Assembly: GCF_001280205.1 (NCBI RefSeq)
Contig: NZ_CP012573.1
Coordinates: forward strand, 806,001 to 870,000
Source: Clavibacter capsici
GTDB taxonomy: Bacteria > Actinomycetota > Actinomycetes > Actinomycetales > Microbacteriaceae
DNA: 64,000 nt
Reading direction: 5' to 3'
This document shows, piece after piece, positions 1,366 to 64,000 of the stretch. Both the position numbers and the translations under genes were made by a program. The stretch's first letter is position 1, and each line of letters begins with the position of its first letter. The notes beneath the pieces are model-generated. The model saw nothing but the letters and a program-made list of their open reading frames with translations, ran no database searches and was not told the origin of the DNA.

Positions 1366-2553
1366 ATGTCCAGTCTCAGCAGTGTGGCGGGTTTCCTCGT
1401 CAGTCGCCTCAGGCAGATCGGCATCTTCATCGCGCTGATCGCGATCGTGGTGCTCTTCCAGATCCTCACCGACGGGACGCTCCTCGAGCCCCGCAACGTC
1501 ACGAGCATCGTCGTCCAGAACGCCTACATCCTGATCCTCGCGATCGGCATGGTGATGATCATCATCGCTGGCCACATCGACCTGTCGGTCGGATCCGTGG
1601 TCGCGCTCATCGGCGCCGTCTCGGGCGTGTTCGCCGTGAACTGGGGCTGGCCGTGGTGGGCGTCCATCCTCGTCAGCCTCGTGATCGGCGGCCTCATCGG
1701 CGCCTGGCAGGGCTTCTGGGTGGCGTACGTCGGCATCCCCGCGTTCATCGTGACGCTCGCCGGCATGCTCACCTTCCGCGGCCTCGCGCAGATCGTGCTG
1801 GAGAACCGCCCGATCACGCCGTTCCCGGACGAGTACGTGTCGGTCGGCGCGGGCTTCCTGCCCGACCCCTCGGGCGGCACCTCCTACCTCGAGTGGGTCA
1901 CGGTCACGCTCGGCGTCCTGGCCGCGGTCTTCCTCGTCGCGCAGCAGCTCCGCGAGCGTCGTGCCCGCGTGAAGCTGAACCTCGAGGACGAGCCCTTCGC
2001 CTGGTTCATCACGAAGCTCGCCACCATTGCGATCCTCGTGCTCGGCATCACGTACCTGCTCGCCAGCTACCAGGGCACCCCGATCGTGCTCGTGATCCTC
2101 GCGGTCCTCGTGCTCGTCTACACGGCGGTGATGGGCCGCAGCATCTTCGGCCGTCACATCTACGCCCGAGGCGGCAACCTGAACGCGGCGCAGCTGTCCG
2201 GCATCAACACGAAGCGCGTGGACTTCCTGCTCTTCGTGAACATGGGCTTCCTGGCCGCCCTCGCGGGCATCGCCTTCACGGCGCGCAGCAACTCGGCGCT
2301 CCCCGCGGCCGGCAACGGCTTCGAGCTCGACGCGATCGCCGCGGTGTTCATCGGCGGCGCGGCCGTCACGGGCGGCATCGGCACCGTCACCGGCGCGATG
2401 GTCGGTGGCCTGATCATGGGCGTGCTCAACAACGGCATGTCGCTGCTCGGCCTCGGCACGGAGTACCAGCAGCTCATCAAGGGCCTCGTGCTCCTGCTGG
2501 CCGTCGCGTTCGACGTGTTCAACAAGAGCCGCGGGTCCAAGTCCGCGACCTGA
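1366..2553 (+). CDS. Sugar ABC transporter permease, XylH/RbsC family, probably xylose
   Basis: This 395-residue polytopic membrane protein is the permease partner of the upstream ATPase. The family signature is visible as AGHIDLSVGSVVALIGAVSG near residue 65, and GGAAVTGGIGTVTGAMVGG near residue 330. It is longer than RbsC, as is usual for XylH/GguB-type permeases, because of an extra central segment containing a charged loop (RERRARVKLNLEDE). I chose the ATG at 1366 because it follows the ATPase stop closely and starts just before the first hydrophobic segment. A longer frame upstream only runs through the ATPase gene. It is the last gene of the operon and is followed by a hairpin terminator. 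Confidence 0.93.
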   Translation: MSSLSSVAGFLVSRLRQIGIFIALIAIVVLFQILTDGTLLEPRNVTSIVVQNAYILILAIGMVMIIIAGHIDLSVGSVVALIGAVSGVFAVNWGWPWWASILVSLVIGGLIGAWQGFWVAYVGIPAFIVTLAGMLTFRGLAQIVLENRPITPFPDEYVSVGAGFLPDPSGGTSYLEWVTVTLGVLAAVFLVAQQLRERRARVKLNLEDEPFAWFITKLATIAILVLGITYLLASYQGTPIVLVILAVLVLVYTAVMGRSIFGRHIYARGGNLNAAQLSGINTKRVDFLLFVNMGFLAALAGIAFTARSNSALPAAGNGFELDAIAAVFIGGAAVTGGIGTVTGAMVGGLIMGVLNNGMSLLGLGTEYQQLIKGLVLLLAVAFDVFNKSRGSKSAT

Positions 2554-2579
2554 TCCACCCGCGCTGACGCGCAGACGCG

Positions 2580-2611
2580 AGGGCCCGGCATCCGAGAGGA
2601 CGCCGGGCCCT
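2580..2611 (+). terminator. Hairpin terminator after the ABC permease
   Basis: The 10-bp stem AGGGCCCGGC/GCCGGGCCCT encloses a 12-base loop and lies 26 bases after the permease stop. There is no U tract, as is common in actinobacteria. The left arm shares GGGCCCGGCATCC with the xylA terminator about 130 bp further on. Confidence 0.7.
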
Positions 2612-2705
2612 CTCGTCGCATCCCGGGCACGGCGCACGGGGCACGGGGCACGGCGTCGCGCGCGGCATGGAGGACGCGGCGGACGCGCGCGATCGCCTGG
2701 GACGA

Positions 2706-2743
2706 CGGAGGGCCCGGCATCCACGTGGATGCCGGGCCCTCCG
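2706..2743 (-). terminator. Perfect 38-base palindrome acting as terminator of xylA
   Basis: A 19-bp perfect inverted repeat with no spacer (left arm begins CGGAGGGCCCGGCATCC) sits 18 bases beyond the xylA stop. It closes the tail-to-tail gap between the ABC operon and xylA and would work on either strand. Confidence 0.7.
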
Positions 2744-2761
2744 GTCGTGCGGGTGCGGGCT

Positions 2762-3955
2762 CTAGGAGCGCGCGCCCATCAGGTGCTCGAGCGCCAGCTG
2801 GTTGAGGCGGACGAATCCGAAGCCCTTCGCGTCGAAGTACTCGTCGGCCGCGAAGTCCTCGTAGGAGGAGCGGTCGGCGAGGATGTCGTCGTAGGACTCG
2901 CCCTCGTTCAGCGTCGGCGTGTAGATGTCCTGGACCTTGGCGGCGGCCAGCGCCTCCTGGACCTCGGGGTCGGCGCGGAAGGCCTGCGCGCGCTCCTTGA
3001 GGAGCAGGTACATGCGCATGTTCGCCGCGGCGGAGTCCCACACGCCCGTGATGTCCTCGGTGCGGCTGGGCTTGTAGTCGAAGTGACGGGGGCCGTCGTA
3101 GGAGCGGCCGCCGCCCACGCCGCCGTTCTCCAGCAGGTCGACGAGCGAGAACGCGTTCTGCAGGTCGCCGTGGCCGAAGACGAGGTCCTGGTCGTACTTG
3201 ATGCCGCGCTGGCCGTTGAGGTCGATGTGGAAGAGCTTTCCCTGGTACAGCGCCTGCATGATGCCGGCGGTGAAGTTGAGGCCCGCCATCTGCTCGTGGC
3301 CGACCTCGGGGTTCACGCCGACGAGCTCGGGGCGCTCGAGGGTCTCGATGAAGGCGAGGGCGTGGCCCAGGGTCGGCAGCAGGATGTCGCCGCGGGGCTC
3401 GTTGGGCTTCGGCTCGATGGCGAAGCGGATGTCGTAGCCCTTGTCGGTGACGTAGTCGCCGAGGAGGTTGACGGCCTCGCGGTAGCGCTCGAGCGCGCCG
3501 CGGACGTCCTTGGCGGAGTCGTACTCGGCGCCCTCGCGGCCGCCCCACATCACGAACGTCTGCGCGCCGAGCTCGGCGGCGAGGTCGATGTTGCGGAGCA
3601 CCTTGCGGATCGCGAACCGGCGGACGGCGCGGTCGTTGGAGGTGAAGCCGCCGTCCTTGAAGACGGGGGCCGAGAAGAGGTTCGTGGTGACCATCGGCAC
3701 GACGATGCCGGTGTCGCTCAGCGCGCCCTTGAGGCGGTCGATCTGCTTCTGGCGCTCCGCGTCGGTGGATCCGAAGGCGAAGAGGTCGTCGTCGTGGAAC
3801 GTGAGGCCGTAGGCGCCCAGCTCCGAGATGCGCTCCACGCCCTCGACCACGTCGAGGTCGGAGCGGGTCGGGCCGCCGAAGGGGTCGGCCCCCGTGTATC
3901 CGATGGTCCAGAGTCCGAACGAGAACTTGTCCTCGCGGGTGGGGGTGAGCGCCAT
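2762..3955 (-). CDS. xylA: Xylose isomerase
   Basis: This 397-residue enzyme interconverts D-xylose and D-xylulose in the cytoplasm and is full length for the actinobacterial class I family. The catalytic pair H54 and D57 lies in TFHDDD. Metal-site segments are visible: [33 protein letters not shown] and FGHGDLQ. The ATG at 3955 is preceded by a good AGGAGA site. The gene converges on the ABC transporter operon and is divergent from the beta-glucosidase gene. No xylulokinase or ROK-type regulator is in view, but the upstream region holds a GTTG-N7-CAAC repeat that could be an operator. Confidence 0.97.
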
Positions 3956-3985
3956 GGTGTCTCCTGTCAGCGTCGTCGGTGATTT

Positions 3986-4000
3986 GTTGCTAGCTACAAC
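3986..4000. promoter_or_regulatory. Possible sugar-repressor operator upstream of xylA
   Basis: GTTG-N7-CAAC lies in a small A/T-rich island within the 206-bp gap between xylA and the beta-glucosidase gene. Placement and the TTGTTG-like arms resemble ROK/XylR operators, but the match is short and only two half sites of four bases are exact. Confidence 0.3.
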
Positions 4001-4161
4001 CTAACCGGAGCGCGGCGGCGGCACAACGCCGACACGGCCGCGGCGACGGCTCGGGTGGACGCTCGCGTCGCGGCCCGGGCAGGATGGCGGGAGGCCGTGG
4101 CTGGACCCGCGCGAGCGCGGGTCGGGCGGCCGCCACCCCGACGGAGAGGTCCCCGAACGCC

Positions 4162-5667
4162 ATGACCGACGCATCGCCCACCGCAGCCGGCACGCCCGGG
4201 GATCCCGTTGACGACCGGGGCGCGGGGCTCGCCTTCCCGCCCGGCTTCCTGTTCGGATCCGCCACCGCCGCGTACCAGATCGAGGGTGCCGCCGACGAGG
4301 ACGGCCGGGGTGCCTCGATCTGGGACACGTTCAGCCGCACGCCGGGGAAGGTGCTGGGCGGCGACACGGGCGACGTCGCCGACGACCACTACCACCGGCT
4401 CGAGTCCGACCTCGACCTGATGCAGGCGCTCGGCCTCGAGGCGTACCGGTTCTCGATCGCGTGGCCGCGGATCCAGCCGACCGGGCGCGGCCCGGCGAAC
4501 CCGGCGGGGCTCGCGTTCTACGGGCGGCTCGTCGACGGCCTGGTGGCCCGCGGCATCACGCCCATCGCGACGCTCTACCACTGGGACCTCCCGCAGGCGC
4601 TCGAGGACGAGGGCGGCTGGACGAACCGGGACACCGCGTACGCCTTCGCCGACTACGCCCGGATCATGGGCGAGGCGCTCGGCGACCGCGTCGGCACGTG
4701 GACCACGCTCAACGAGCCGTGGTGCTCGGCCTACCTCGGCTACGCGGCCGGCGTGCACGCGCCGGGCCGCACCGACGCCGAGGCGTCGTTCCGTGCCGTC
4801 CACCACCTCAACCTCGCGCACGGGCTCGCCGTCCGGGCGCTCCAGGAGGTCGTGCCGGCGGACGCGCGCTTCTCCATCACGCTCAACCTGCACGTGATCC
4901 GCGGCGAGGGCGACACGGGCCCCGAGGCCGTGCGCCGCGTCGACGGCGTCGGCAACCGCGTGTTCCTCGGCCCGCTGCTGCACGGGGAGTACCCCGCCGA
5001 CGTGATCGAGGACACGGCGGCGATCACCGACTGGTCGTTCGTCCTCCCGGGCGACGCCGAGCTGATCCGCCAGCCGCTCGACCTGCTGGGCGTCAACTAC
5101 TACAACACCAGCCGCGTGCGGATGCGGGACGCGTCCTCCGCGGGCGGCGGCACCTCCATCCACGGCGACGTCGCCGCGACGCCCTTCCCCGGCACGGAGG
5201 ACGTCGAGTTCCTGGAGCAGCCGGGCCCGTACACGGCGATGGGCTGGAACATCGAGCCGCAGGGCCTCGAGGACCTCCTCGTGTCGCTGCACGAGGAGTT
5301 CCCCGACCTGCCGCTGATGGTCACGGAGAACGGCGCCGCCTTCGACGACGAGGTGACCGTGGGGGACGGCGGCGCGCGCGCCGTGCACGACGCCGAGCGG
5401 ATCGACTACCTCAGCCGGCACTTCGCGGCCGCCCACCGCGCCATCGAGCGCGGCGTCGACCTCCGCGGCTACCAGGTGTGGTCGCTCCTCGACAACTTCG
5501 AGTGGGCCTTCGGGTACTCGAAGCGCTTCGGGATCGTGCACGTCGACTACGCCACGCAGGAGCGCACGCCCAAGGACAGCGCGCTCTGGTACGCCCGGCT
5601 CATCGCCGACCGCGCCATCCCCGCCGCCGACGCGCGCCCCGAGCGCGACGTGCGTCCCGGGGCGTGA
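4162..5667 (+). CDS. Family 1 glycoside hydrolase, beta-glucosidase
   Basis: This 501-residue cytoplasmic glycosidase would release glucose from beta-linked disaccharides such as cellobiose or plant glucosides. The N-terminal family 1 signature is [19 protein letters not shown]. The acid/base is E185 in TLNEPW and the nucleophile E389 is in VTENGA. I chose the ATG at 4162 because GGAGAGGT precedes it by about 11 bases; the open frame extends further upstream without a ribosome site. The GTG of the next gene overlaps its stop (GTGA), so the two are translationally coupled. Exact substrate cannot be read from sequence. Confidence 0.94.
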
Positions 5668-6230
5668 GCGCCCCGCCGCCCGGCGCGGACGAGCGCGCGG
5701 AGCTCGCCGACGGCATCTGGATGCGGCCCGCGCGGATCACCGACGCGGTCGCGCTCGCCGAGGCGTACCGCGCGAACCGGGAGCACCTCCGCCCGTTCGA
5801 GCCGGCGCGCACCGACGCGTTCTTCACGTCGGCGGGGCAGCGCGCGCAGCTCGCGGGCCGGGTCGCCGAGCGGGCCGCCGGATCCGGGCTGCCGTACCTC
5901 GTCGTGGAGGGGGACCGGATCATCGGGCGCTGCGACCTCTTCGCGGTGAAGCGCGGGGCGGCGCAGAGCGCGAGCCTCGGCTACTGGATCGACCGCGACC
6001 GGCAGGGGATCGGCCTCGCCACGGCCGCCGCGCGGCACGCGGTCCGCATCGCACGGGCCGCCGGGCTGCACCGGCTGGAGGCGTCGACGCTCGTGGGGAA
6101 CGGCGGATCCGAGGAGGTGCTCCGGCGGGCCGGCTTCGTCGCGATCGGCGTCGCGCCCGCCTACCTGCGGATCGACGGCGCGTGGAGCGACCATACGCTC
6201 TGGCAGCGGGTGGTCGACGGCGCGCGCTGA
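5664..6230 (+). CDS. GNAT family acetyltransferase, RimJ/RimL type
   Basis: This 188-residue predicted N-acetyltransferase resembles the ribosomal-protein alanine acetyltransferase group. [10 protein letters not shown] begins the fold, and the acetyl-CoA loop is in [17 protein letters not shown] at about residues 110-127, followed by the typical [22 protein letters not shown]. The start GTG overlaps the stop of the beta-glucosidase gene by four bases, and no other start fits. Its substrate is unknown; being coupled to a glycosidase suggests an operon but not a shared pathway. It ends 25 bp from the converging MarR gene. Confidence 0.85.
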
Positions 6231-6255
6231 GCGAGGCCGCCCGCAGGCGTCCGCG

Positions 6256-7153: not shown

Positions 7154-7280
7154 GCCGCTCGTTCCTCCGCGTCAGGGAGCCGCCGGCGGACGCCGGAGGC
7201 AGACCCCTCAGACATTACGGAGCACCACCGACATCGCGCCAGCGGCGGGGGCGCGACGCATCGGCGGACCGGGCCGGGCG

Positions 7281-8318: not shown

Positions 8319-9413
8319 ATGCCGACCCCGACCCCCGCCCCCGCCGCATCCGCGGACGACGCCTCCGCGCCGCTCCCCGCCGACCTGCGCGACCTGTTCG
8401 AGGCGGGCCCCGGCTACCTCTCCGCCTGCACCATGGGCCTGCCCACGCGCGCCACCGTCGCGCGGCTCCGGGACGACCTCACGACGTGGTCGGCCGGCGG
8501 ATCCACCGCGCACGGCTACGGCGGCGTCGTCGAGGGCGTGCGCGCGTCGTACGCGTCGCTCGTGGGCGTGCCGGTGGGATCCGTCGCGATCGGCTCGCAG
8601 ACCGCCTCCTTCGTGAGCGTGCTCGCCGCCGCCGTGCCCGCGGGCGCCGAGGTGCTGTGCGTCGCGGGCGACTTCAGCTCGCTCACCTACCCCTTCGTGG
8701 TGGCCCGGGCGCGCGGCGTGGTCGTGCGCCACGTGCCGCTCGAGGAGCTCGCGGCCGAGATCGGTCCGCGCACGCACCTCGTCGCCTTCTCGCTCGTGCA
8801 GTCCGCGGACGGGCGCGTGGCCGACGTCGCCGCCATCCGGGAGGCCGCGCGGATCCACGACGCCTTCACGCTGTGCGACACCACGCAGGCCGCCGGCGCG
8901 ATGCCCGTCGACGCGGGGCTCTTCGACGCGACCGCCTGCCACGCCTACAAGTGGCTGTGCGCGCCCCGCGGCGCCGCGTTCCTCACGCTGTCGGACCGCT
9001 ACCGGCGGACCCTCGTGCCCGTGCAGGCCAACTGGTACGCGGGCGCCGACGTGTGGGCCTCCTGCTACGGGCCCGCCATGGCGCTCGCCGAGGACGCCCG
9101 CGCCTTCGACGTGTCCCCGGCGTTCGGCGCCTGGGTCGGCGCGGCGCCCGCGATCGCCCTCTTCGCCCGCCTCGACCTCGACGCCGTGCACCGCAGGAAC
9201 GCGGAGCTCGGCGACCTCGTGAGCGCGGGGCTCGGGATCGAGCCGCGCGGGCAGGCCATCGTCACCTGGCCGGACGCGGACGGCGCCGACCTCGCGCGGC
9301 TGGGCGCCGCGGGGATCGTCGCCTCCGGTCGCGCGGGCCGGGCGCGCATCGCGTTCCACCTCTGGAACGACGAGGACGACGTCGAGCGCGTGGTGGCGGC
9401 GCTCCGCGGCTGA
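8319..9413 (+). CDS. Aminotransferase class V protein (cysteine desulfurase/selenocysteine lyase-like)
   Basis: This 364-residue PLP-dependent enzyme has fold type I, class V. The Schiff-base lysine is K211 in ACHAYKWLCAPRGAAF, and the preceding PLP-contact region is TLCDTTQAAGAMPVD. The C-terminal part ends with GRARIAFHLWNDEDDVERV, typical of this class. It could be a cysteine desulfurase, an isopenicillin-N-epimerase-like enzyme or another lyase; no iron-sulfur assembly genes are nearby, so a dedicated Fe-S role is not supported. Regulation by the divergent LysR protein is likely. There is no strong ribosome site before the ATG at 8319. Confidence 0.85.
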   Translation: MPTPTPAPAASADDASAPLPADLRDLFEAGPGYLSACTMGLPTRATVARLRDDLTTWSAGGSTAHGYGGVVEGVRASYASLVGVPVGSVAIGSQTASFVSVLAAAVPAGAEVLCVAGDFSSLTYPFVVARARGVVVRHVPLEELAAEIGPRTHLVAFSLVQSADGRVADVAAIREAARIHDAFTLCDTTQAAGAMPVDAGLFDATACHAYKWLCAPRGAAFLTLSDRYRRTLVPVQANWYAGADVWASCYGPAMALAEDARAFDVSPAFGAWVGAAPAIALFARLDLDAVHRRNAELGDLVSAGLGIEPRGQAIVTWPDADGADLARLGAAGIVASGRAGRARIAFHLWNDEDDVERVVAALRG

Positions 9414-17129: not shown

Positions 17130-19247
17130 ATGGCTCGGAGCATCTACATCACGTCCGCCGAAGGGCACTCGGGCAAGTCGACGGTCGCGCTGGGCGTCCT
17201 CGACACCCTCACCCACCAGATCCAGCGCGTGGGCGTCTTCCGTCCCATCGCCCGCTCCATCGTCGAGCGCGACTACGTGCTCGAGGCGCTGCTCTCGCAC
17301 GACGGCGTCGACCTCGACTACGACGAGTGCGTGGGCGTCACCTACGACGACGTGCACGCGGATCCCGAGGCCGCGCTCTCCCGCATCGTCGAGCGCTACA
17401 AGGCCGTCGAGGCGAAGTGCGACGCGGTCGTCATCGTCGGCAGCGACTACACCGACGTCGGCAGCCCCACGGAGCTGTCGTTCAACGCCCGCATCGCCGC
17501 GAACCTCGGCGCACCCGTGCTCCTCGTGCTCACGGGCCGCCGCACCGACGAGTCGGGCGGACGCAGCCCCGACGAGATGCGCCAGATCGCCGACCTCGCC
17601 ATCCCCGAGCTCGTCACCGCGCACGCGGGCCTCCTCGGCGTCGTCGTGAACCGCGCCGACCCCGAGGCCCTCGACGCCATCACGGCCGCCATCCCCGCCG
17701 CCGTCCCCGCGTCGCTCCAGGCCCGGGCCCCGCACGTGCCGGTCTGGGCGATCCCCGAGGACGCGTTCCTCGTCGCGCCGACCGTCGCCGAGCTGCTCGA
17801 CGCCGTCGACGGCGAGCTCGTGAAGGGCGACCCGGCGCTCCTCAGCCGCGAGGCGCTCGGCGTCGTCGTCTCCGCCATGTCGATGGAGAACGTGCTCGCG
17901 CGCCTCACCGAGGGCGCCATCGTCGTGATCCCGGGCGACCGCAGCGAGGTCCTGCTCGGCGTGCTCACGGCGCACGCCTCCGAGACCTTCCCCACGGTCG
18001 CGGGCATCGTGCTGAACGGCGGGTTCGCGCTGTCGCCCACCATCGAGACGCTCGTCTCGGGCCTCGACCAGACCCTGCCGATCATCTCCACCGAGCTCGG
18101 CACCTACGAGACGGCGAAGCGGATCACCCAGACGCGCGGGCGCCTCTCGCCCGAGTCCGCCCGGAAGATGGACACGGCGCTCGCCGCGTTCGAGCAGCAC
18201 GTCGACACGGCGCGGCTGCTGGAGCTCCTGGACGTCAGCCGCTCCGACGTCGTCACACCGCTCATGTTCGAGTACGGGCTCATCGAGCGCGCCAGGAGGG
18301 CCGGGAAGCGGATCGTGCTGCCCGAGGGCACCGACGACCGCGTGCTGCGGGCCGCGGGCACGATCCTGAGCCGCGGCATCGCCGACGTCACGATCCTCGG
18401 CGAGGAGATCGAGGTGCGCTCGCGGGCCATCGGCCTCGGCATCGACATCGGGCGCGCCACCGTCCTCAGCCCGTTCGACGCGGTGCTCCGCGAGCGGTTC
18501 GCGGAGGAGTACGTGCGGCTCCGGGCGCACAAGGGCATGGTGCTCGACATCGCGCGCGAGACCGTGACCGACGTCTCCTACTTCGGCACGATGATGGTGC
18601 AGCTCGGCCTCGCCGACGGCATGGTCTCCGGCGCCGCGCACACGACGGCGCACACCATCCGGCCGGGCTTCGAGATCATCAAGACCACCGAGGGCGTGTC
18701 CGTCGTCTCGTCCGTGTTCCTCATGGCGCTCGCCGACCGGGTGCTCGTCTACGGCGACTGCGCCGTGAACCCGGATCCCACGGCCGACCAGCTCGCCGAC
18801 ATCGCCATCTCGTCGGCCGCGACCGCCGCGCAGTTCGGCATCGAGCCGCGCATCGCGATGCTGTCGTACTCGACGGGGGAGTCGGGCGCCGGCGCCGACG
18901 TGGAGAAGGTGCGCCGGGCGACGGCGCGCGTGCGGGAGCTGCGGCCGGACCTCGCGGTCGAGGGCCCCATCCAGTACGACGCGGCGGCGGACGCGGCGGT
19001 CGCGGCCGCGAAGATGCCCGGCTCCGAGGTCGCCGGCCGCGCGACCGTCTTCATCTTCCCGGACCTCAACACGGGCAACAACACCTACAAGGCCGTGCAG
19101 CGCTCGGCCGGTGCCGTCGCCATCGGGCCCGTGCTGCAGGGCCTCCGCAAGCCCATCAACGACCTATCGCGCGGCGCGCTCGTGCAGGACATCGTCAACA
19201 CCGTCGCCATCACCGCCATCCAGGCCGAGGGGATCCAGGCGGGCTGA
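17130..19247 (+). CDS. pta: Phosphate acetyltransferase, long form
   Basis: This 705-residue enzyme transfers acetyl between CoA and phosphate and works with acetate kinase in acetate overflow or uptake. It is the long form. An N-terminal P-loop dethiobiotin-synthase-like domain shows EGHSGKST at residues 11-18, a DRTGG-type middle follows at about 215-325, and the catalytic PTA domain covers about 385-700 (GTDDRVLRAAG; VNPDPTADQLADIAI; DLNTGNNTYKAVQRSA). The ATG at 17130 is chosen because it starts exactly at the P-loop domain; the longer frame upstream enters the SRP RNA. ackA follows after 68 bp. Confidence 0.96.
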   Translation: MARSIYITSAEGHSGKSTVALGVLDTLTHQIQRVGVFRPIARSIVERDYVLEALLSHDGVDLDYDECVGVTYDDVHADPEAALSRIVERYKAVEAKCDAVVIVGSDYTDVGSPTELSFNARIAANLGAPVLLVLTGRRTDESGGRSPDEMRQIADLAIPELVTAHAGLLGVVVNRADPEALDAITAAIPAAVPASLQARAPHVPVWAIPEDAFLVAPTVAELLDAVDGELVKGDPALLSREALGVVVSAMSMENVLARLTEGAIVVIPGDRSEVLLGVLTAHASETFPTVAGIVLNGGFALSPTIETLVSGLDQTLPIISTELGTYETAKRITQTRGRLSPESARKMDTALAAFEQHVDTARLLELLDVSRSDVVTPLMFEYGLIERARRAGKRIVLPEGTDDRVLRAAGTILSRGIADVTILGEEIEVRSRAIGLGIDIGRATVLSPFDAVLRERFAEEYVRLRAHKGMVLDIARETVTDVSYFGTMMVQLGLADGMVSGAAHTTAHTIRPGFEIIKTTEGVSVVSSVFLMALADRVLVYGDCAVNPDPTADQLADIAISSAATAAQFGIEPRIAMLSYSTGESGAGADVEKVRRATARVRELRPDLAVEGPIQYDAAADAAVAAAKMPGSEVAGRATVFIFPDLNTGNNTYKAVQRSAGAVAIGPVLQGLRKPINDLSRGALVQDIVNTVAITAIQAEGIQAG

Positions 19248-19315: not shown

Positions 19316-20506
19316 GTGCCCGTCGTCCTCGTCGTCAACTCCGGATCGTCGTCCTTCAAGTACCAGCTCATCGAGATGGGCTCCGAGACCGTGCTCGCCT
19401 CCGGGCTCGTGGAGCGCATCGGGGAGGGAACCGGATCCACCCGCCACCGGGCGGGCGGCGACTCGTCGGAGCGCGAGCTGCCCATCGCCGACCACACCGC
19501 CGGGTTCCAGGCGATGCTCGACGCGTTCGCCGAGCACGGGCCGTCGCTGGACGACAACCCGCCCGTCGCGGTGGGGCACCGCGTGGTCCACGGCGGGGAC
19601 GTGTTCGTCGAGCCGACGGTGGTCACCGATCAGGTGAAGGCCGACATCGACGACCTCTCCGCGCTCGCGCCCCTGCACAACCCCGGTGCGCTGCAGGGGA
19701 TCGAGGCGGCGCAGCAGGCGTTCCCCGACGTGCCGCACGTGGCCGTGTTCGACACCGCGTTCCACCAGACGCTGCCGGCCGAGGCGTACACGTACGCGAT
19801 CGACCGGGAGCTCGCGGCGGCGCACCGCATCCGGCGGTACGGGTTCCACGGCACGAGCCACAAGTACGTGTCCGAGGCCGCGGCCCGGCTGCTCGGGAAG
19901 CCGCTCGAGGAGACGCGGATCATCGTGCTGCACCTCGGCAACGGCGCCTCGGCCGCCGCCGTGCAGGGCGGGCGCTCGATCGACACGTCCATGGGCCTCA
20001 CGCCGCTCGAGGGCCTCGTGATGGGGACCCGATCCGGCGACATCGACCCGGCGATCCTCTTCCACCTCGCCCGCCACACCGACCTCGGCCTCGACGAGCT
20101 CGAGACGCTGCTCAACCGGAAGAGCGGCCTGCTCGGCCTCACCGGGCTCGGCGACATGCGCGACGTGCAGCGCGCCGCGGCCGACGGCGACGAGGCCGCG
20201 CAGACGGCGCTCGGCGTGTACCGGCACCGGATCCGCCACTACGTGGGCGCGTACGCGGCGCAGCTCGGGGGAGTGGACGCGGTCGTCTTCACCGCGGGCG
20301 TGGGCGAGAACAACCCGCTCGTGCGCCGCCGCTCGCTCGCGGGGCTCGAGTTCATGGGGATCGGGATCGACGACGACCGCAACGAGCTGATCAGCTCCGA
20401 GGCGCGCTTCGTGAGCCCCGAGGGCTCGCCCGTCGCGGTGCTCGTGATCCCCACGGACGAGGAGCTCGAGATCGCCCGGCAGTCGCTGGAGGCGACCGCG
20501 GGCTGA
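19316..20506 (+). CDS. ackA: Acetate kinase
   Basis: This 396-residue cytoplasmic enzyme interconverts acetate plus ATP with acetyl phosphate. Family motifs run in order: VLVVNSGSSSFKYQL, GHRVVHGGD, FDTAFHQTLP, YGFHGTSHKYV, HLGNGAS, DTSMGLTPLEG and FTAGVGEN. The GTG at 19316 has AGGAGA six bases upstream. It is the second gene of the pta-ackA operon and ends in a strong terminator. Acs, the other acetate-activating route, is encoded at 53.9-56 kb. Confidence 0.98.
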   Translation: MPVVLVVNSGSSSFKYQLIEMGSETVLASGLVERIGEGTGSTRHRAGGDSSERELPIADHTAGFQAMLDAFAEHGPSLDDNPPVAVGHRVVHGGDVFVEPTVVTDQVKADIDDLSALAPLHNPGALQGIEAAQQAFPDVPHVAVFDTAFHQTLPAEAYTYAIDRELAAAHRIRRYGFHGTSHKYVSEAAARLLGKPLEETRIIVLHLGNGASAAAVQGGRSIDTSMGLTPLEGLVMGTRSGDIDPAILFHLARHTDLGLDELETLLNRKSGLLGLTGLGDMRDVQRAAADGDEAAQTALGVYRHRIRHYVGAYAAQLGGVDAVVFTAGVGENNPLVRRRSLAGLEFMGIGIDDDRNELISSEARFVSPEGSPVAVLVIPTDEELEIARQSLEATAG

Positions 20507-27733: not shown

Positions 27734-30196
27734 GTGGTCACCGCCCTGTATCGCCGTTATCGGCCAGAGAACTTCGCCGAGCTCATCGGCCAGACGCAGG
27801 TGACGGATCCGCTGCGCACCGCCCTGCGCACCAACCGCGTCAACCACGCGTACCTCTTCAGCGGCCCGCGCGGCTGCGGCAAGACCACGTCGGCCCGCAT
27901 CCTCGCGCGCTGCCTCAACTGCGCGGAGGGCCCCACCGACACCCCGTGCGGCGTCTGCCCGAGCTGCGTGGAGCTCAGCCGCGACGGCAGCGGGTCGCTC
28001 GACGTGGTGGAGATCGACGCGGCCAGCCACAACGGCGTCGACGACGCGCGCGACATCCGCGAGCGCGCGGTCTTCGCGCCGGCGCGCGACCGCTACAAGA
28101 TCTTCATCCTCGACGAGGCGCACATGGTCACGCCGCAGGGCTTCAACGCGCTGCTGAAGATCGTGGAGGAGCCGCCGGAGCACGTGAAGTTCATCTTCGC
28201 CACCACCGAGCCCGACAAGGTCATCGGCACCATCCGCTCCCGCACGCACCACTACCCGTTCCGCCTCGTGCCGCCCGCGCAGATGCTCGACTACGTGGAG
28301 CACCTCGCGACGGAGGAGCACGTGGGTGTCGCCCCCGGCGTCCTGCCGCTCGTGGTCCGGGCCGGCGGCGGGTCGGTGCGCGACACCCTCTCCCTGCTCG
28401 ACCAGCTCATCGCCGGATCCGAGGACGAGAGCGTGGAGTACGAGCGCGCCGTCGCGCTCCTCGGCTACACGCACGCCGCCCTGCTCGACGAGGTCATCGA
28501 CGCGGTCGCCCGGCACGACGCCGCCGCCGCGTTCGCGGGGGTGGATCGCGTCATCCAGACCGGCCAGGATCCGCGCCGCTTCGTCGAGGACCTCCTCGAG
28601 CGCCTGCGCGACCTCATCATCGTGGGCGCCACGTCCGTCGAGGGCGCGGCCGCCGTGCTGCGCGGCACCCCGGAGGACGAGCTCGAGCGCATGCGCGCGC
28701 AGGCCGTCGCCTTCGGCGCCGTCGAGCTGTCGCGCGCTGCCGACGTGGTCAACGCCGCCCTCACCGAGATGACCGGCGCCACGTCGCCGCGCCTCCACCT
28801 CGAGCTCCTGGTCGCGCGCGTGCTCGTGCCCGCCAGCGACGACACGCACCGCGGCGCCCTCGCCCGCGTGGAGCGCCTCGAGCGCCGGGTCGGCGTGGCC
28901 GACGGGGGAGCGGATCCCGCGCCCGTGGCGCCCGCCGCCACGCTGGTGCCCGCTCCCGCCGCGCCGACGCCCGCGCTCGCTCCCGCCGAGGCCGCGCCGA
29001 AGGCCCCCGCTCGCGTCGAGGCCCCGGCCGACGTGGCGCGGCCCCAGCCCGCCGAGGCATCAGCCTCGCGCCCGGCCGTGCCGGAGGCGTCCGCGCCCGC
29101 CGCGCCGGCCGCTCCGTCGGCATCCGCCGCGCCCTCCGCGCCCGTCGGCCCCGTCACGTTCGAGCAGCTCCGCGACTCCTGGCCGTCGGTCGTCGAGGCC
29201 GTCGAGAAGGCCAAGCGGAGCGCGTGGCTCGTCGCCGTCACGGCCACACCCCGCGCGCTGGCCGGCGACGTGCTCACCCTGTCCTTCGTCAGCGCGAACG
29301 ACGCGGAGCGGTTCAAGGAGCGCGGCGCGCCCGGGCAGGGCGTCAGCGACATCCTGCGCACCGCCATCCTCGACGTGCTCGGCCTCCGCGTGAAGTTCAT
29401 CGCGCGCGTCGAGCCGCACGGCGGCAGCGCCGCTCCCTCGGGCGCCGCGGGCCCGCCGGGCGGCGGCTCGACCGCCCCCGCGACCGCCCCCGAGGCCTCC
29501 CGCCCGGCGTCCGCCGACGCGACGACGACGGCCAGGCCCACGACGTCCGCGGGCCCGGCGGCGTCGCGTCCCGTCGCGTCCTCCGCTCCCGCCGGCCCGT
29601 CGACCCCGGACGCCGCAGCTCCCGCCGCCCCGGCGGCGAAGACGACCCCGCCCGTGAAGACGAAGCCCGCAGGCGGCGGGTGGGCCACCGTGGCCATCCC
29701 CACGTCCGATCCCGGCGCCTCCGAGGCCCCGGCGGTCCGCGCGCCCGCCTCCCGGCCCGAGCGCACCGCGCCCACGACCTCGTCGGCCCCCGAGGCAGCC
29801 CGGACGGCTCCCGCACCGGCTACGCGCACCGCGGCCCCGAGCTCGCCCGCCCGCGGATCCTCCGTCGTCCCCGACGCGCACGTCCCCGACTTCGAGGAGC
29901 CCGAGCCCGACGAGTTCGGCCCCGCCGAGCCCGGCTGGGCCACGGGGGGCGCGTCGCCCGACTCGGCCCCGCCGGTGTCCCGACCGGCCCCCGCCCACGA
30001 GCCGCCTGCGTCCGCGTCCGCGACCGGGTCCGCGCCCCGGCCCGACGCGGCCCCCGCCGCGAAGGCCCCGCCCGCCGCCGCCCCGCAGCGCTACGGCGAG
30101 TCCGTCGTCCGCGAGATCCTCCAGGCGAGCTTCATCGAGGAGAAGCCCGTCGAGCGCAAGGCCCGCCCCACCATCCGCCCCACAGGTCAGGACTAG
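27734..30196 (+). CDS. dnaX: DNA polymerase III subunits gamma/tau
   Basis: This 820-residue clamp-loader ATPase has Walker [10 protein letters not shown] at residues 44-52, a zinc-type cysteine cluster ([19 protein letters not shown]) and Walker B FILDEAH ending at 130. The SRC-like [14 protein letters not shown] is present. Residues 1-370 are the conserved AAA+ part. The region from about 385 to 790 is Pro/Ala-rich low-complexity linker around one folded block ([20 protein letters not shown]), and the protein ends in [17 protein letters not shown]. The GTG at 27734 gives the usual [17 protein letters not shown] start. I see no slippery A/T heptamer for a gamma frameshift. recR follows after 6 bases. 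Confidence 0.96.
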
Positions 30197-30857: not shown

Positions 30858-33290
<2,433 letters not shown>

Positions 33291-33376: not shown

Positions 33377-34855
33377 GTGAGCGATACAGCGGAACCGGTA
33401 GACGTCGTCCTCGTCGGCGGGGGCATCATGAGCGCCACGCTCGGCACCCTCATCAAGCAGCTCGAACCCGACTGGACCATCCAGATCTTCGAGCGCCTCG
33501 GCGAGGTCGCGATGGAGTCGAGCAACCCGTGGAACAACGCGGGCACGGGTCACGCGGCCCTCTGCGAGCTGAACTACACGCCGGAGAAGGACGGGAGGAT
33601 CGACATCGGGTCCGCGACCCGCATCAACGAGCAGTTCCAGCTCTCCCGCCAGTTCTGGGCCCACCTCGTCACGGCCGGTGCCGTGCCGGAGCCCAAGGAG
33701 TTCATCAACCCCACCCCGCACATGACCTTCGTGCGCGGCGAGGAGAACGTCGCGTACTTGCGCCGTCGCTTCGACGCCATGCGCGTGCACCCGCTCTTCG
33801 AGGCCATGGAGTACTCGGAGGACCCCGCGGTCATCCACTCGTGGGCCCCGCTCCTCGTGCTCCAGCGCGAGAAGGACGAGGTCATCGCGGCGACCCGCTT
33901 CGAGGGCGGCACCGACGTCGACTTCGGGGCCCTCACCAACAAGCTGATCGACTACCTCACCGAGCACGGCGCCGCCCTGCACCTCAACCACGAGGTCCGC
34001 GGCCTGTCGAAGAACGCGGACGGCAGCTGGCACCTCCGCATCCGCAACGACGTCGGCCGGTCGACCGTGCACGTGGATGCGAAGTTCGTCTTCATCGGTG
34101 CGGGCGGCGGCGCGCTGCACCTCCTGCAGAAGTCGGGCATCCCCGAGATCAAGGGCTTCGGCGGCTTCCCCATCAGCGGCGAGTGGTTCCGCACGGACGA
34201 CCCCGAGATCGTCGCGAGGCACCGGGCGAAGGTCTACGGCAAGGCGGCCATCGGATCCCCGCCCATGTCGGTGCCGCACCTCGACACGCGCGTGGTGGGA
34301 GGCGAGACCTCGCTCCTGTTCGGCCCCTACGCCGGCTTCAGCCCGCGCTTCCTCAAGAAGGGCTCGCTGCTCGACCTGTTCACGTCGATCCGCCCGCACA
34401 ACATCATCCCGATGCTCGCGGTCGCGAAGGACAACCTGAGCCTCATCAAGTACCTCGTCAGCCAGCTCATCGCCTCCAAGGAGACGAAGTTCGACTCGCT
34501 GCGCGAGTTCATGCCCACGGCCGACCCGAAGGACTGGTACCAGGTCACGGCCGGCCAGCGCGTGCAGGTCATGAAGAAGGACGCGGAGAAGGGCGGCGTG
34601 CTGCAGTTCGGCACGGAGGTCGTCGCGGCGGCCGACGGCAGCATCGCGGGCCTCCTCGGCGCCTCGCCGGGAGCGTCCACGGCCGTCCCGATCATGCTCG
34701 ACGTCCTCGGTCGCTGCTTCCCCGACCGCATCGCGGGGTGGAAGAAGCCGCTCACGCGGATGATCCCCAACTACGGCACACTCGTCGCCTCCGACCCGAA
34801 GAAGACGCCGAAGATCATCCAGGAGACCGCCGAGGTCCTCGAGCTCCAGCACTGA
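33377..34855 (+). CDS. mqo: Malate:quinone oxidoreductase
   Basis: This 492-residue peripheral membrane flavoprotein oxidises malate to oxaloacetate and passes electrons to the quinone pool. The FAD motif is [20 protein letters not shown]. The family hallmark [20 protein letters not shown] follows at about residues 50-70, and [19 protein letters not shown] and [10 protein letters not shown] lie centrally. The C-terminal half ends with MIPNYGTLV. The longer open frame upstream is out of keeping with the family, so the GTG at 33377 is taken as the start. A hairpin follows the stop. Confidence 0.97.
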
Positions 34856-40654: not shown

Positions 40655-42471
40655 CGTCCGCAGCGCATCCCGGGCGCTCGTCCCGGCGCCGCTCGCGGCG
40701 TCGGCCCTGGACGCGGCGCCGCGTCCTCCGGGTCGCGGGGGTCGGGGTCGCCGTGCTCCTCCTCCTCTGGATCGTGTGGATCGCCGCCCGCGCGCTCCTC
40801 GCCCGCGGTGAGCTCGAGCAGGCCGTCCCGCTCGCGTCCTCGGTCCAGCGCGACCTCCTAGCGGGCGACTCGGCCGGTGCCGCCGCGAGCGTCGCCCAGC
40901 TCCGCGAGCACTCCGGGCGCGCGGCGTCGCTGACGGGCGACCCCGTCTGGGCCGTCACCGAGCACGTGCCGTTCGTCGGCCCGAACCTCCGTGCGTTCCG
41001 CGAGATCTCCGGCATCGTCGACCGCATCGGCGGCGACGCCCTGCAGCCGGTCGTCGGCATCGCGGGGTCGCTCGACATCGGCTCCCTCACCCCGAAGGCC
41101 GGGCGCCTCGACCTCGACCCGATCGTCGCCGCGCAGGAGCCCGTCCGCCAGGCCGACGACGCGCTCGACGCGGCGCTCACCGACGTGACGGCCATCGACA
41201 CCGGCAGCACGATCCGCCCCGTGGCCGACGCGGTCACGCGCCTCCGCGAGACGGTCGGCAAGGCGGCGGAGACCCTTGCGGTCGTGCGCCACGTCACCGA
41301 CCTCGCTCCCGCCATGCTCGGCGCGGACGGCGACCGCTCCTACCTGCTCATGTTCCAGAACAACGCCGAGGTGCGCTCGACGGGCGGCATCCCCGGAGCC
41401 CTGGCGCTGGTCCGCACGGGAGACGGCGCGTTCTCGCTCAGCGGCCAGGACTCGGCGCGCGCGTTCCCGCGGCTCGCGAAGCCGGCCCTGCCGCTCGATC
41501 CCCAGACCGCGGGCCTCTACGGCACGATCACGGGCCGCTACATGCAGGACGTCACGCTGACGCCGGAGTTCCCGCAGGCCGCGCCGCTCGCGGCCGAGAT
41601 GTGGCGGCTGAAGCACGGCGACCGGGTGGACGGCGTGATCAGCATCGATCCCGTCGCGCTCTCCTACCTGCTCGAGGCCACGGGACCCATCACGCTCGCC
41701 ACCGGCGACGTGCTCCGCTCCGACGACGCCGTCGACCTGCTCCTGCACGACGTCTACCTCCGCTACCCCGACCCGGACGTGCAGGACGCCGTGTTCGCGA
41801 GCGTCGCCGACTCCGTCTTCGCGAAGGTCTCCTCCGGCGACGTGGATCCGGCCGCCCTCGTCTCCGCGCTCGGTCGAGCGGCGGAGGAGCGGCGCATCCT
41901 CATCTGGAACTCCCGTGCCGACGAGCAGGCGACCCTGGCGGGCACGACGTTCGAGGGCTCGCTGCCCGCGGACAACTCCGAGTCCACGGTCTTCGGCGTG
42001 TTCCTGAACGACTCGACCGGCGCGAAGATGGACTACTTCCTGCAGCTGGCGACCACGCAGGGCATGGCCATGTGCCGCGACGACGGGCGTCCCGACTACC
42101 GCACGGAGGTCACGCTCCGATCGACCGCTCCCGCCGACGCCGCGTCGCTGCCGTTCGTGGTGACGGGCGGTGGGGTGTACGGCGTGCGACCCGGCGACAT
42201 CAAGACGCGCGTCGCGGTCTACGGGCCTCCCGGCACGGTGCCGCTGCGGGTCGACATCGACGGCGAGCCGACCCAGTTCCAGCCCGAGATCGTCGGCGGT
42301 CGCGCCGTGGCGCAGGTCGAGGTGACGCTCACGCCCGGCCAGGAGGTCCGCATCTCGGTGGACACGCTGGGGGACAAAAGGACCGACACGCCCCTCTCGA
42401 TCGTCACGACACCGGTCATTAACAGGATCGCAACACAATTCCGCTCGCTGTCCTGCGACAGCACCCGCTAG
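40651..42471 (+). CDS. DUF4012 domain membrane protein
   Basis: This 606-residue protein has an Arg-rich cytoplasmic start, a transmembrane helix at about residues 28-47 and a large extracytoplasmic part. The DUF4012 core includes YLLMFQNNAEVRSTGGIPGA, DVTLTPEFPQAAPLAAEMW, VDGVISIDPVALSYLLEATG and an FLNDSTGAKMDYFL segment. DUF4012 proteins occur in Gram-positive polysaccharide and cell-wall loci and resemble LytR-CpsA-Psr partners, but no reaction is established. The start GTG overlaps the previous stop. It lies downstream of the BY-kinase and upstream of two LPVTG proteins, which fits an envelope-polymer role. Confidence 0.88.
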   Translation: MTSAAHPGRSSRRRSRRRPWTRRRVLRVAGVGVAVLLLLWIVWIAARALLARGELEQAVPLASSVQRDLLAGDSAGAAASVAQLREHSGRAASLTGDPVWAVTEHVPFVGPNLRAFREISGIVDRIGGDALQPVVGIAGSLDIGSLTPKAGRLDLDPIVAAQEPVRQADDALDAALTDVTAIDTGSTIRPVADAVTRLRETVGKAAETLAVVRHVTDLAPAMLGADGDRSYLLMFQNNAEVRSTGGIPGALALVRTGDGAFSLSGQDSARAFPRLAKPALPLDPQTAGLYGTITGRYMQDVTLTPEFPQAAPLAAEMWRLKHGDRVDGVISIDPVALSYLLEATGPITLATGDVLRSDDAVDLLLHDVYLRYPDPDVQDAVFASVADSVFAKVSSGDVDPAALVSALGRAAEERRILIWNSRADEQATLAGTTFEGSLPADNSESTVFGVFLNDSTGAKMDYFLQLATTQGMAMCRDDGRPDYRTEVTLRSTAPADAASLPFVVTGGGVYGVRPGDIKTRVAVYGPPGTVPLRVDIDGEPTQFQPEIVGGRAVAQVEVTLTPGQEVRISVDTLGDKRTDTPLSIVTTPVINRIATQFRSLSCDSTR

Positions 42472-44643: not shown

Positions 44644-45675
44644 GTGACCCACCTCGCCCGCGTGCCCCTGGACGTCCTCGACCTCGCCCCGCGCCCGTTC
44701 GGCGGCACCAACGCGGACGCCGTCGCCGGCAGCATCCGCCTCGCCCAGGCGGCGGAGACCGCGGGCTACTCGCGCTTCTGGGTCGCCGAGCACCACGGGA
44801 TGCCGGGGATCGCGAGCTCCGCCCCGGCCGTCCTCCTCGCGGGCATCGCCGCCCGCACCTCCACGATCCGCGTCGGCAGCGGCGGCGTCATGCTGCCGAA
44901 CCACACGCCGCTCGTCGTGGCCGAGCAGTTCGGCACGCTCCGCGCCCTCTACGGCGACCGGATCGACCTCGGCATCGGCCGTGCTCCCGGCACGGACGGC
45001 GCGACCGCGATGGCGCTCCGCCGCAGCGAGGCCGGCCTCGGCGTTGACGACTTCCCGCAGCAGCTGGTCGACCTCGTCGGCTTCTTCACCGGCGGCATGG
45101 CCGACGACAACCCGCTGCGGGGGATCACGGCGGTGCCCGGGCTCGGCGACGTGCCGCAGATGTGGCTCCTCGGATCCAGCGGCTACTCCGCGCAGGTCGC
45201 GGCCGCCCTAGGGATCCGCTTCGCCTTCGCGCACCACTTCGCGGGCGACCGCACCGAGCAGGCGCTCGCGATGTACCGCGAGCGCTTCCAGCCGAGCGAC
45301 GACCTCGCGGAGCCGCACAGCGCCATCGCGGTGAGCGTCATCGCCGACGAGGACCCCGAGGTCGTCGAGCGGGAGGCGCGCGCCGGCCGCATCACGTGGC
45401 TCCGCATGCGCCAGGGCGGGAAGCCCCAGCCCGTGGATCCCGTCGAGGCCGCCGCCTACGAGTTCAGCGACCTCGAGCGCGAGATCATCGGCGCGCGCGA
45501 CCGGCGCCAGGCCATCGGCTCACCCCACGCCGTGCGCGTCGGCCTGGAGCGCCTGCTGACGAGCACGGGCGCGGACGAGCTCATCGTCGCGCCGTCCTCC
45601 ACCACGCTCGAGCACCGCATCGCGACCCTCCGGACCGTGCGCGAGCTGGCCTCCGCGGAGGCCAGCGCCGCCTGA
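44644..45675 (+). CDS. Luciferase-like flavin monooxygenase (MsnO8-like)
   Basis: This 343-residue TIM-barrel protein is predicted to use reduced FMN. Typical segments are [51 protein letters not shown] and [11 protein letters not shown], which fit the bacterial luciferase-like oxidoreductase group MsnO8. The physiological substrate is unknown. The GTG at 44644 has a preceding GGGG; a second GTG at 44662 is an alternative. It is probably monocistronic, since the penicillin-binding protein gene behind it has its own promoter. Confidence 0.87.
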
Positions 45676-58623: not shown

Positions 58624-58748
58624 CGGCCTCCACCGGTCGCGGACCGCAAGGTGCCCGGGCCCTGCGGCACGGGCATGGTGACCTCCTGGCCGACGGTCGG
58701 CCGGGGACAGGACGGCGGGAGCACCCGCCACGGGAAGAGGACGAGGAC

Positions 58749-59975: not shown

Positions 59976-60057
59976 GCGGGACGACGGCTGCCGGGAGGTC
60001 CTCTCCGCTCCGCATCCGGGCGGCAGCGCGATTAGGTGGCCGGTCGGTGCGCGTGTG

Positions 60058-60063
60058 TATGGT
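60058..60063 (+). promoter_or_regulatory. -10 box upstream of topA
   Basis: TATGGT lies 112 bases before the topA GTG, implying a leader of about 105 bases. Nearer the start, GCATATATAAGGAGTCAC supplies an AAGGAG ribosome site in an A/T-rich patch. Confidence 0.35.
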
Positions 60064-60175
60064 GTGCCTTGTCGGGGACCCCGCCGCACATCGCCCCGGA
60101 GCGCATCCGAGCGGGCACGCCTCCCGGACACCGGGCCGGCCTCCGGCCCCCATGAACGCATATATAAGGAGTCAC

Positions 60176-63136: not shown

Positions 63137-63768
63137 CCGGCGTCTTCATCACGCTGGAGGGCGGCGACGGCGTGGGGAAGTCCACGCAGTCGGCGCTCCT
63201 CCGGGAGTGGTTGGAGGGCCAGGGCCGGGAGGTCGTCGTCACCCGCGAGCCGGGAGGCAGCGAGCTGGGGGCGGAGATCCGCGAGATCGTGCTGCACCGT
63301 CGAGGCCACATCGCCCCTCGCGCGGAGGCCCTGCTCTACGCGGCCGACCGCGCGCACCACATCGAGACGGTCGTCCGGCCCGCCCTCGAGCGGGGCGCCG
63401 TGGTCCTGCAGGACCGCTACCTCGACTCGTCCGTCGCCTACCAGGGAGCCGGGCGGGTGCTCGACGCCGGCGAGATCTGCGAGCTGTCGCTCTGGGCGGC
63501 CGAGGGGCTCCTGCCCGACCTCACCGTCCTGCTGGACCTCGACCAGGCGGCCGCCCGGATCCGGCTCGACGCCGCCCGGACCCGTTTCGACCGGCTCGAG
63601 GCCGAGCGCGGGGAGTTCCACGAGCGCGTCCGCCACGCGTTCCTCGGGCTCGCCGAGGCCGAGCCCGACCGCTTCCTCGTCGTCGACGCCGCGCGTCCCC
63701 GCGAGGAGATCGCCGACGTGATCCGCACGCGGGCCGCCGCGCTCCTCGAGGCGGGGGCGCGCGCATGA
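63133..63768 (+). CDS. tmk: Thymidylate kinase
   Basis: This 211-residue enzyme phosphorylates dTMP to dTDP. The P-loop is GGDGVGKST at residues 10-18, the DR(Y/H) motif is VLQDRYLDSSVAYQGAGR, and TREPGGSELG carries the conserved Arg. The start GTG overlaps the topA stop by four bases, and the next gene's ATG overlaps its own stop, so topA-tmk-holB is one operon. This order is typical of actinobacteria. Confidence 0.97.
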   Translation: MTGVFITLEGGDGVGKSTQSALLREWLEGQGREVVVTREPGGSELGAEIREIVLHRRGHIAPRAEALLYAADRAHHIETVVRPALERGAVVLQDRYLDSSVAYQGAGRVLDAGEICELSLWAAEGLLPDLTVLLDLDQAAARIRLDAARTRFDRLEAERGEFHERVRHAFLGLAEAEPDRFLVVDAARPREEIADVIRTRAAALLEAGARA

Positions 63769-64000
63769 GCGACGAGGCGACGGATCCGGCCGTGGCGACG
63801 CCCGCCAGCCCGGACGGGCGCGCCATCTGGGACGAGCTCACGGGCCAGTCCGAGGCCGTCGCGCTCCTCGCCGCGGCCAGCAGCCCGCGGGCCACCGCCC
63901 GCGACGCCAGCGGCACCGCGCTCGCGCACTCCTGGCTCATCACCGGTCCTCCGGGATCCGGCCGTTCGAACCTGGCCTACGCGTTCGCGACCGCGCTGCT
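63765..64000 (+). CDS. holB: DNA polymerase III subunit delta' (3' end outside window)
   Basis: Only the first 78 codons are present. After a short acidic leader comes WDELTGQSEAVALLAAAS and the Walker A region LITGPPGSGRSNLAYAFATA. Here the P-loop lysine is replaced by R-S, as in delta' subunits, which do not hydrolyse ATP in the clamp loader. The start ATG overlaps the tmk stop (ATGA). The identity rests on this motif and on the topA-tmk-holB order. Confidence 0.9.
   Translation, partial: MSDEATDPAVATPASPDGRAIWDELTGQSEAVALLAAASSPRATARDASGTALAHSWLITGPPGSGRSNLAYAFATAL

Follow-up and report, generated by a model that had tools for sequence, protein, structure and literature searches.

GGATCC is a highly iterated word of Clavibacter and one dialect of a family-wide word in the Microbacteriaceae

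Throughout the Clavibacter genome the palindrome GGATCC recurs as a highly iterated word, at about five times the frequency expected from protein sequence and codon usage. It belongs, as one dialect, to a word with a GGAT core that is found across the family, and for this word GGATGCC/GGCATCC is the commonest form in the sampled Microbacteriaceae. The stretch at the centre of this analysis is a 64,000-nucleotide piece of the Clavibacter capsici chromosome (assembly GCF_001280205.1, contig NZ_CP012573.1), hereafter the window, which spans positions 806001–870000 of the 3,056,296-bp chromosome; the genome totals 3,241,713 bases in three contigs. The first two genes called on the chromosome read as DnaA and then DnaN, both recognised by eye.

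The original prediction, made from the letters of the window, had estimated about 100 GGATCC sites; the exact count is 107, and each of the ten coordinates it cited lies no more than 6 bases from a GGATCC start (Table 1). Dinucleotide shuffles of the window yielded 32.8 copies (standard deviation [sd] 5.7, maximum of 46 in 100 shuffles), and Markov models of orders 1–4 predicted 33, 38, 53, and 73. The word has the top maximal-order Markov z-score among the 6-mers of the window and also among those of a 420-kb chromosome sample, consisting of the window and 18 other stretches (384 genes called by our own script, 88% coding). In the whole genome, GGATCC occurs 5,909 times, compared with 162 for the reversed word.

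The main null model shuffled synonymous codons over all genes, holding proteins and codon usage fixed. The 384 genes contain 735 GGATCC, against 139 (sd 9) under this null, and the excess occurs in every reading frame, as GGA-TCC (289 observed versus 17), nnG-GAT-CCn (208 versus 16), and nGG-ATC-Cnn (238 versus 106). Noncoding DNA of the sample holds 88 copies where composition predicts 16. The proposal that many sites are spelled with codons these genes otherwise avoid is borne out, as 289 of the 788 Gly-Ser pairs are written GGATCC (codon usage predicts 2.2%; GGA accounts for 6.2% of Gly codons), as are 208 of the 543 Asp-Pro pairs with a possible preceding G (GAT accounts for 5.9% of Asp codons). 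We calculate from the Gly-Ser pairs a scaled fixation bias of about 3, a value on a par with strong codon bias. The excess is real and genome-wide beyond doubt, and what is under pressure, as had been suggested, is the word as DNA: GGATCC is maintained in all frames and in intergenic DNA by a fixation bias that is strong, sequence-specific, and exerted on double-stranded DNA. The reading of the excess as an artefact of codons, codon pairs, or composition is refuted by the codon shuffle and is hardly credible. Ordinary codon usage does partly favour the frame nGG-ATC-C (106 of the 139 expected copies), but a codon-pair effect cannot explain the excess because all three frames and noncoding DNA are affected. 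Additionally, GGATCC counts differ several-fold among genomes of one genus, and only GGATCC-type genomes and genome G004 have the word in first or second place among their 6-mers (G088, which yielded no called genes, was left out).

Table 1. GGATCC in the window; positions are those of the window, and sites are listed with the coordinate given in the original prediction.
Feature	Positions	Strand	Basis
GGATCC (palindrome), 107 copies, 1.67 per kb	1591..63959		exact count, window
GGATCC cited as 8499	8499..8504		exact match
GGATCC cited as 17360	17360..17365		exact match
GGATCC cited as near 18770	18773..18778		exact match
GGATCC cited as 19431	19433..19438		exact match
GGATCC cited as 28912	28912..28917		exact match
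GGATCC cited as 31356	31354..31359		exact match
GGATCC cited as 32426	32423..32428		exact match
GGATCC cited as 34255	34253..34258		exact match
GGATCC cited as 41850	41844..41849		exact match
GGATCC cited as 45433	45435..45440		exact match

Related words do not share the enrichment to the same degree, so the second outcome that the original prediction named as refuting it, equal enrichment of words such as GGATCG and TGATCC, does not hold. With strands pooled, GGATCC stands at 5.3 times the codon-shuffle null, compared with 1.33 for GGATCG/CGATCC and 1.49 for TGATCC/GGATCA (both small, yet well outside their shuffles) and 1.04 for AGATCC/GGATCT, and none of the other GATC-centred palindromes is enriched (CGATCG 0.91, TGATCA 1.02, AGATCT 0.95). 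One-letter neighbours that differ at an outer base are thus at or above the null (1.04–1.49). Among changes to the central AT, GGGTCC/GGACCC (0.59, 0.31, and 0.40 times the null) and GGCTCC/GGAGCC (0.72, 0.53, and 0.60) fall below the null in three data sets (the last pools seven Microbacterium stretches in one shuffle); the third central class, GGTTCC/GGAACC, is not consistently depleted (0.81, 1.30, and 1.19). The flanking bases matter in a graded manner, with enriched forms such as CGGATCCG (207 observed, 19.6 under the null), CGGATCCC (180, 23.5), and GGGATCCC (45, 9.7), and forms without enrichment such as AGGATCCA (18, 18.5), TGGATCCA (2, 2.2), and AGGATCCT (0, 1.3). GGATCC has a GC content of 67% and the most enriched 8-mer, CGGATCCG, of 75%; the alternates that Elhai described for the highly iterated palindromes (HIP) of cyanobacteria have at least 75%.

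Along the 19 stretches of the chromosome sample, GGATCC density ranges from 1.05 to 3.45 per kb, and no periodic or even spacing of the sites was found (coefficient of variation 0.98, close to Poisson). A 2018 study in Nucleic Acids Research reportedly dealt with selection on, and periodicity of, HIP1. Short-range repulsion between sites (in genome G000, 33 pairs closer than 60 bp versus 74 expected) was dropped because genome G164 contradicts it (40 versus 35) and close pairs of the control word CGGCCG are likewise scarce at distances under 40 bp. The share of possible sites that are used falls weakly with distance from dnaA (rho −0.49, p 0.03, 19 stretches), but GC content correlates more strongly with GGATCC use (rho 0.70), and a replichore effect was set aside, being weak and hard to separate from GC content.

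Conservation was judged from alignments of the window with the homologous regions in three congeners. Whole GGATCC 6-mers are kept at 0.60, 0.61, and 0.53 in the three, no better than average 6-mers. GGATCC is protected only when compared with the same rare codons elsewhere, which is the fair control. The A of GGA was retained in 26/38, 26/36, and 25/35 cases inside GGATCC versus 21/72, 17/78, and 28/77 elsewhere, and the T of GAT in 14/19, 15/20, and 13/17 cases inside the word versus 25/62, 16/52, and 22/54 elsewhere.

Beyond Clavibacter, the word changes. Whole-genome counts across 199 genomes of the family place all four genomes of the window's own genus at 5,368–6,148 GGATCC, and outside it only G164, G126, G004, and G151 exceed 2,500. 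For GGATGCC, a relative of GGATCGCC, 48 of 80 fetched loci were analysed, 33 of them not named as other families (family was assigned by name, one of the 33 is named only 'Micrococcales bacterium', sums were made by hand, and locus L144 was left out for having too few called genes). GGATGCC, the one word to which this count refers, reaches at least twice its null in 22 of these 33 loci, while the 15 loci named as other families total 116 copies versus a null of 109. Leaving M. azadirachtae aside, all eight loci named as Microbacterium show an excess of 2.3- to 5.4-fold; M. azadirachtae carries GGATCC instead (47 observed, 10.2 under the null; GGATGCC 7, 6.7). The excess is at least twofold in both Agromyces loci, in Salinibacterium, in two out of three Leifsonia and three out of four Cryobacterium loci, and elsewhere. 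The loci of Plantibacter, Labedella, Frigoribacterium, Rathayibacter, and Curtobacterium show no clear rise. In stretches of individual genomes, GGATGCC/GGCATCC stands at 3.4, 4.6, and 3.0 times the null in G106, G057, and G179; GGATCC stands at 5.2 and 4.5 times in G000 and G164, with GGATGCC there at 0.8 and 0.4 times. The lineages with GGATCC in place of GGATGCC are Clavibacter, two clades within Microbacterium, and a handful of individual genomes. No description of either as an abundant Microbacteriaceae word was found among the titles and abstract beginnings listed by searches of an open-licence library.

Further variants of the word were also seen. Two Curtobacterium loci (L142 and L155) over-use CAGGATC (9 observed, 1.5 under the null; 8, 2.9), which seems to be the word of that genus, and G004, listed with stretches of G087 and G150, over-uses AGGATCC (28, 2.2) and CAGGATCC (17, 0.8); perhaps Curtobacterium and G004 hold a third dialect. 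ACGGATG is over-used in Gryllotalpicola and two Cryobacterium loci (L137, L143, and L135: 16, 14, and 12 observed; 1, 1, and 2 under the null) and is perhaps a further extension of GGATGCC.

Within the genus of G164, which methyltransferase sequences place near Microbacterium, the GGATCC state is close to two-valued. There, 15 of 247 genomes hold 3,610–8,244 copies and the other 232 hold 341–1,979, a clear gap in raw counts from genomes of 1.7 to 4.8 Mb. The sampled high genomes agree in seven of eight cases (GGATCC 2.6–6.1 times the null, GGATGCC 0.1–1.8 times), as do the seven sampled low genomes, two of them less sharply (GGATGCC 1.5–4.2 times, GGATCC 0.4–2.0 times). On an unrooted tree of 42 genomes, built from ComEA and part of ComEC and so containing a protein that was itself tested as a reader of the word, five changes of the GGATCC label are needed and well-supported branches force five. 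Two of these are Microbacterium switches, clade A (eight genomes) and clade B (five genomes), when G398 is left aside, and the remaining changes are Clavibacter, G398 (intermediate, with 8% contamination), and G151 (a long branch). Seven of the 15 low Microbacterium rows of the tree (G199, G206, G257, G275, G306, G317, and G360) owe their label only to low GGATCC, and five of the 14 high rows (G260, G371, G391, G409, and G437) only to the genome count. Two local patterns were observed in passing: G264, a genome of the same genus as G164, has six GGATCC at a strict 16-base spacing in a short tandem array (C1:30366-30451), and in G209 (C1) GGATCC positions repeat at a 43,859-base offset (1667/45526, 10586/54445, 40079/83938, and 44097/87956), which is a large tandem duplication or an assembly doubling.

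The leading mechanism, which we favour while holding it to be short of probable, is a drive of the DNA-uptake type. Something in the cell would read the word and favour DNA that carries it, and the candidate reader is the natural-transformation apparatus. The cell would take in or process DNA pieces bearing the current word more efficiently and recombine them into the chromosome, so that each chance word-making mutation would gain a small transmission advantage (molecular drive), and a changed reader specificity would replace one word by the other genome-wide. Dialects of DNA uptake sequences operate in this manner in the Neisseriaceae. The graded flanks and the dialects resemble DNA uptake sequences (DUS), for which graded base importance round a short core and, in the Neisseriaceae, a fixed core with dialects following phylogeny are described (PMC3630211). 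Acquired DNA is poorer in GGATCC, which is counted in favour of an uptake dialect: the plasmids hold 70 copies versus 28 (2.5 times), and, with phage genes taken as the longest open frames, Clavibacter phages CMP1 and CN1A hold 23 versus 12.5 (sd 3.0; 1.8 times) and 12 versus 10.8 (1.1 times). In the Microbacterium phage Cassita, handled likewise, GGATCC stands at 0 versus 13.9 and GGATGCC at 14 versus 8.7. The Clavibacter and Microbacterium phages (L210, L211, and L212) are also poor in GTCGAC, CTCGAG, and CGATCG (0, 0, and 2 in Cassita versus 19, 16, and 22 expected). Of the competence genes, ComEA is present in 29 of 30 Microbacterium genomes (G299 was not counted, as its only match has 21.7 bits inside a 1,750-codon frame) and ComEC in all 22 genomes.

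Several observations weigh against a dialect written by uptake. ComEC does not discriminate, because it is found whatever the word. ComEA was rejected as the reader because it does not covary consistently with the word: its helix-hairpin-helix is altered in clade A, with G instead of the R of most others ahead of [IV]GP and with GIGP where GIGE or GIGD stands elsewhere, but is ordinary in clade B, G398, and Clavibacter. We know of no uptake word in Gram-positive bacteria, and the words here are shorter and denser than DUS or the uptake signal sequences of Pasteurellaceae (6–8 bp versus 9–12 bp). Exclusion of one word by the other is imperfect, with GGATCC and GGATGCC at 2.9 and 3.5 times the null in G126, 3.6 and 1.8 in G398, 4.6 and 1.9 in G151, and 2.0 and 1.9 in G217, and the high genome G414 (7,272 copies) shows no excess in one 20-kb stretch (7 versus 8.7). 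Lastly, polarised single changes in the window alignment comprise 28 losses of GGATCC and 10 gains; the word could thus be decaying in the genus, but losses of common words are overestimated by parsimony.

After uptake-dialect drive, methylation and repair rank second and a chromosome-binding reader third. In Elhai's model for the HIP words of cyanobacteria, a methylation mark is combined with mismatch repair that resolves in favour of the word (PMC4390886), and an equivalent process here, with a methyltransferase marking GGATCC and repair resolving mismatches toward it, is possible but rather doubtful. The density, the GC-rich palindrome, the replacement by another word, and the tolerance of outer positions with a mostly protected central AT (as for HIP1 and GGGATCCC, PMC4390886) all match the HIP pattern. 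Methylation of GGATCC exists in nature, as N6-methyladenine (m6A) is reported at this word in the actinobacterium Arthrobacter sp. U41 (PMC5356067) and, with partial methylation, in Sulfolobus acidocaldarius (PMC5809426). However, no methyltransferase common to GGATCC genomes was found in five Pfam families (PF01555, PF00145, and PF02086 in 24 genomes; PF02384 and PF07669 in 15), other families not being searched. The window's genome has one PF01555 match, one PF02384 match, and none for the other three, and the PF01555 enzyme is the only one it has in common with its congener G109, which carries GGATCC, because G109 lacks a PF02384 match. This conserved class-beta enzyme is RsrI/CcrM-like (RsrI and CcrM are the nearest solved structures) and has 98% identity over 196 residues to that of Clavibacter lycopersici CFBP 8615 and 54–68% to the other 79 loci. 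It occurs regardless of the word, across loci named as Microbacteriaceae and Micrococcaceae; no alignment column separates six GGATCC from 21 GGATGCC sequences (L205 not included); and G151, with GGATCC at 4.6 times the null, lacks it, its two PF01555 matches belonging to different kinds. The cognate methyltransferase raised as a possibility by the original prediction is therefore not supported by these five families. Type I HsdM, likewise, does not follow the word, because it is 78–82% identical between the GGATCC genomes G166 and G151 and the GGATGCC genome G106 (17 PF02384/PF07669 proteins were compared; some matches had no locus to compare). MutS (PF00488) was found in only two of 22 genomes, G126 and G179, and not in the window's genome. 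With no common methyltransferase found and MutS this rare, the published HIP explanation does not fit unchanged.

A few side observations concern these enzymes. The MutS_V matches in G126 and G179 are partial (62–74 bits), and these are two of the three genomes examined in one genus. A lone 621-codon frame with an N6-methyltransferase domain (L108, G000:C1:2314123-2314815) has at most 28% identity to the other PF02384/PF07669 proteins compared. The first 20 kb of the chromosome (L001, 1-20000) contain only two TTAA words, at 1869-1872 and 1885-1888, 16 bases apart and between the genes reading as dnaA and dnaN. A like arrangement of TTAA is described for an orphan TTAA methyltransferase of Arthrobacter (PMC4752239), and the conserved PF01555 enzyme may be this TTAA methyltransferase.

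A chromosome-binding or nucleoid protein could also read the word, with each site giving a tiny advantage in packing, replication, or recombination, akin to codon bias for a DNA signal. A strand-symmetric word in all frames and between genes, the graded flanks, sites along the whole chromosome, and the poverty of plasmids and phages in GGATCC are all compatible with such a reader, but repeated switching of thousands of sites between two fixed words would be difficult if the function depended on each of them, and chromosome position matters little; we consider it unlikely. Still further down stands a polar recombination or segregation signal resembling Chi or the FtsK-orienting polar sequences (KOPS). 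Chi in Firmicutes is short, GC-rich, and abundant, as GGATCC is. Conversely, GGATCC is palindromic, and GGATGCC has no strand preference (461 copies on the plus and 469 on the minus strand over 31 loci, chi-square p 0.82; 95 and 100 sense and antisense in G106); this lack of polarity disfavours Chi- and KOPS-like functions and makes such a signal very improbable. Among the functions that the original prediction offered, HIP1-like pressure on the word is supported and a cognate methyltransferase, in the five families searched, is not; chromosome organisation, repair, and uptake are possible, and replication-polar functions are disfavoured.

The GGATCC system works like HIP words and DUS dialects, and is a proven member of neither. 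The likeness to HIP1, already remarked on in the original prediction, extends to the density (5,909 copies in 3.24 Mb, about 1,800 per Mb, where HIP words range over about 1,000–2,000, PMC4390886), the central GATC of a GC-rich palindrome (HIP1 GCGATCGC, with alternates such as GGGATCCC), the pattern of substitutions (outer changes tolerated, changes of the central AT mostly scarcer than expected, GGTTCC not following), and alternate words that occur in relatives and not together (G126 is an exception, with weaker overlap in G398, G151, and G217). The system differs from HIP in its occurrence in Actinobacteria, in a sister word, GGATGCC, that is not palindromic, in that no cognate methyltransferase was found in five families and no MutS in 20 of 22 genomes, and in the recurrence of the same two words in several separate switches. 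With the DUS of Neisseriaceae and the uptake signal sequences (USS) of Pasteurellaceae it has in common a copy number in the thousands, a short core that is conserved (GGAT here, CTG in DUS), dialects distributed along phylogeny, the absence of strand polarity for GGATGCC, the poverty of the examined plasmids and phages in the word, and a competence apparatus, which is necessary but not sufficient; the differences are the Gram-positive hosts and a candidate receptor, ComEA, without consistent covariation, where Neisseria has ComP. BamHI-type restriction-modification has the same recognition word, but GGATCC is here massively over-represented rather than avoided, the genome's only PF01555 enzyme resembles CcrM and RsrI and does not go with the word from genome to genome, and GGATCC is not avoided in two Clavibacter phages. 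Chi and KOPS are similarly short, abundant, GC-rich genomic words, but are polar.

Why short words flood some genomes has been an open question since HIP1, and the published explanation leans on methyltransferases and mismatch repair (PMC4390886). The Microbacteriaceae provide a second bacterial group with the HIP signature, in which the searched parts of that explanation are missing. They also provide a repeated natural experiment, as many species of one genus are in either of two nearly discrete states, and with repeated switches between these states the cause should therefore be findable by comparison of gene content or sequence. Repeated switching between GGATCC and GGATGCC among relatives points to a system that reads short words genome-wide. 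It may be, and we put this only tentatively, that an import or repair machine with two specificities, GGATGCC and GGATCC, and several independent flips between them writes words of 'self' across Microbacteriaceae genomes. If true, this would be, to our knowledge, the first case of self-DNA word dialects among Gram-positive bacteria and, besides, a form of HIP that lacks both MutS and a cognate methyltransferase; and if the uptake apparatus is the reader, it would mean sequence-specific self-recognition in these bacteria, with a bearing on gene flow between species.

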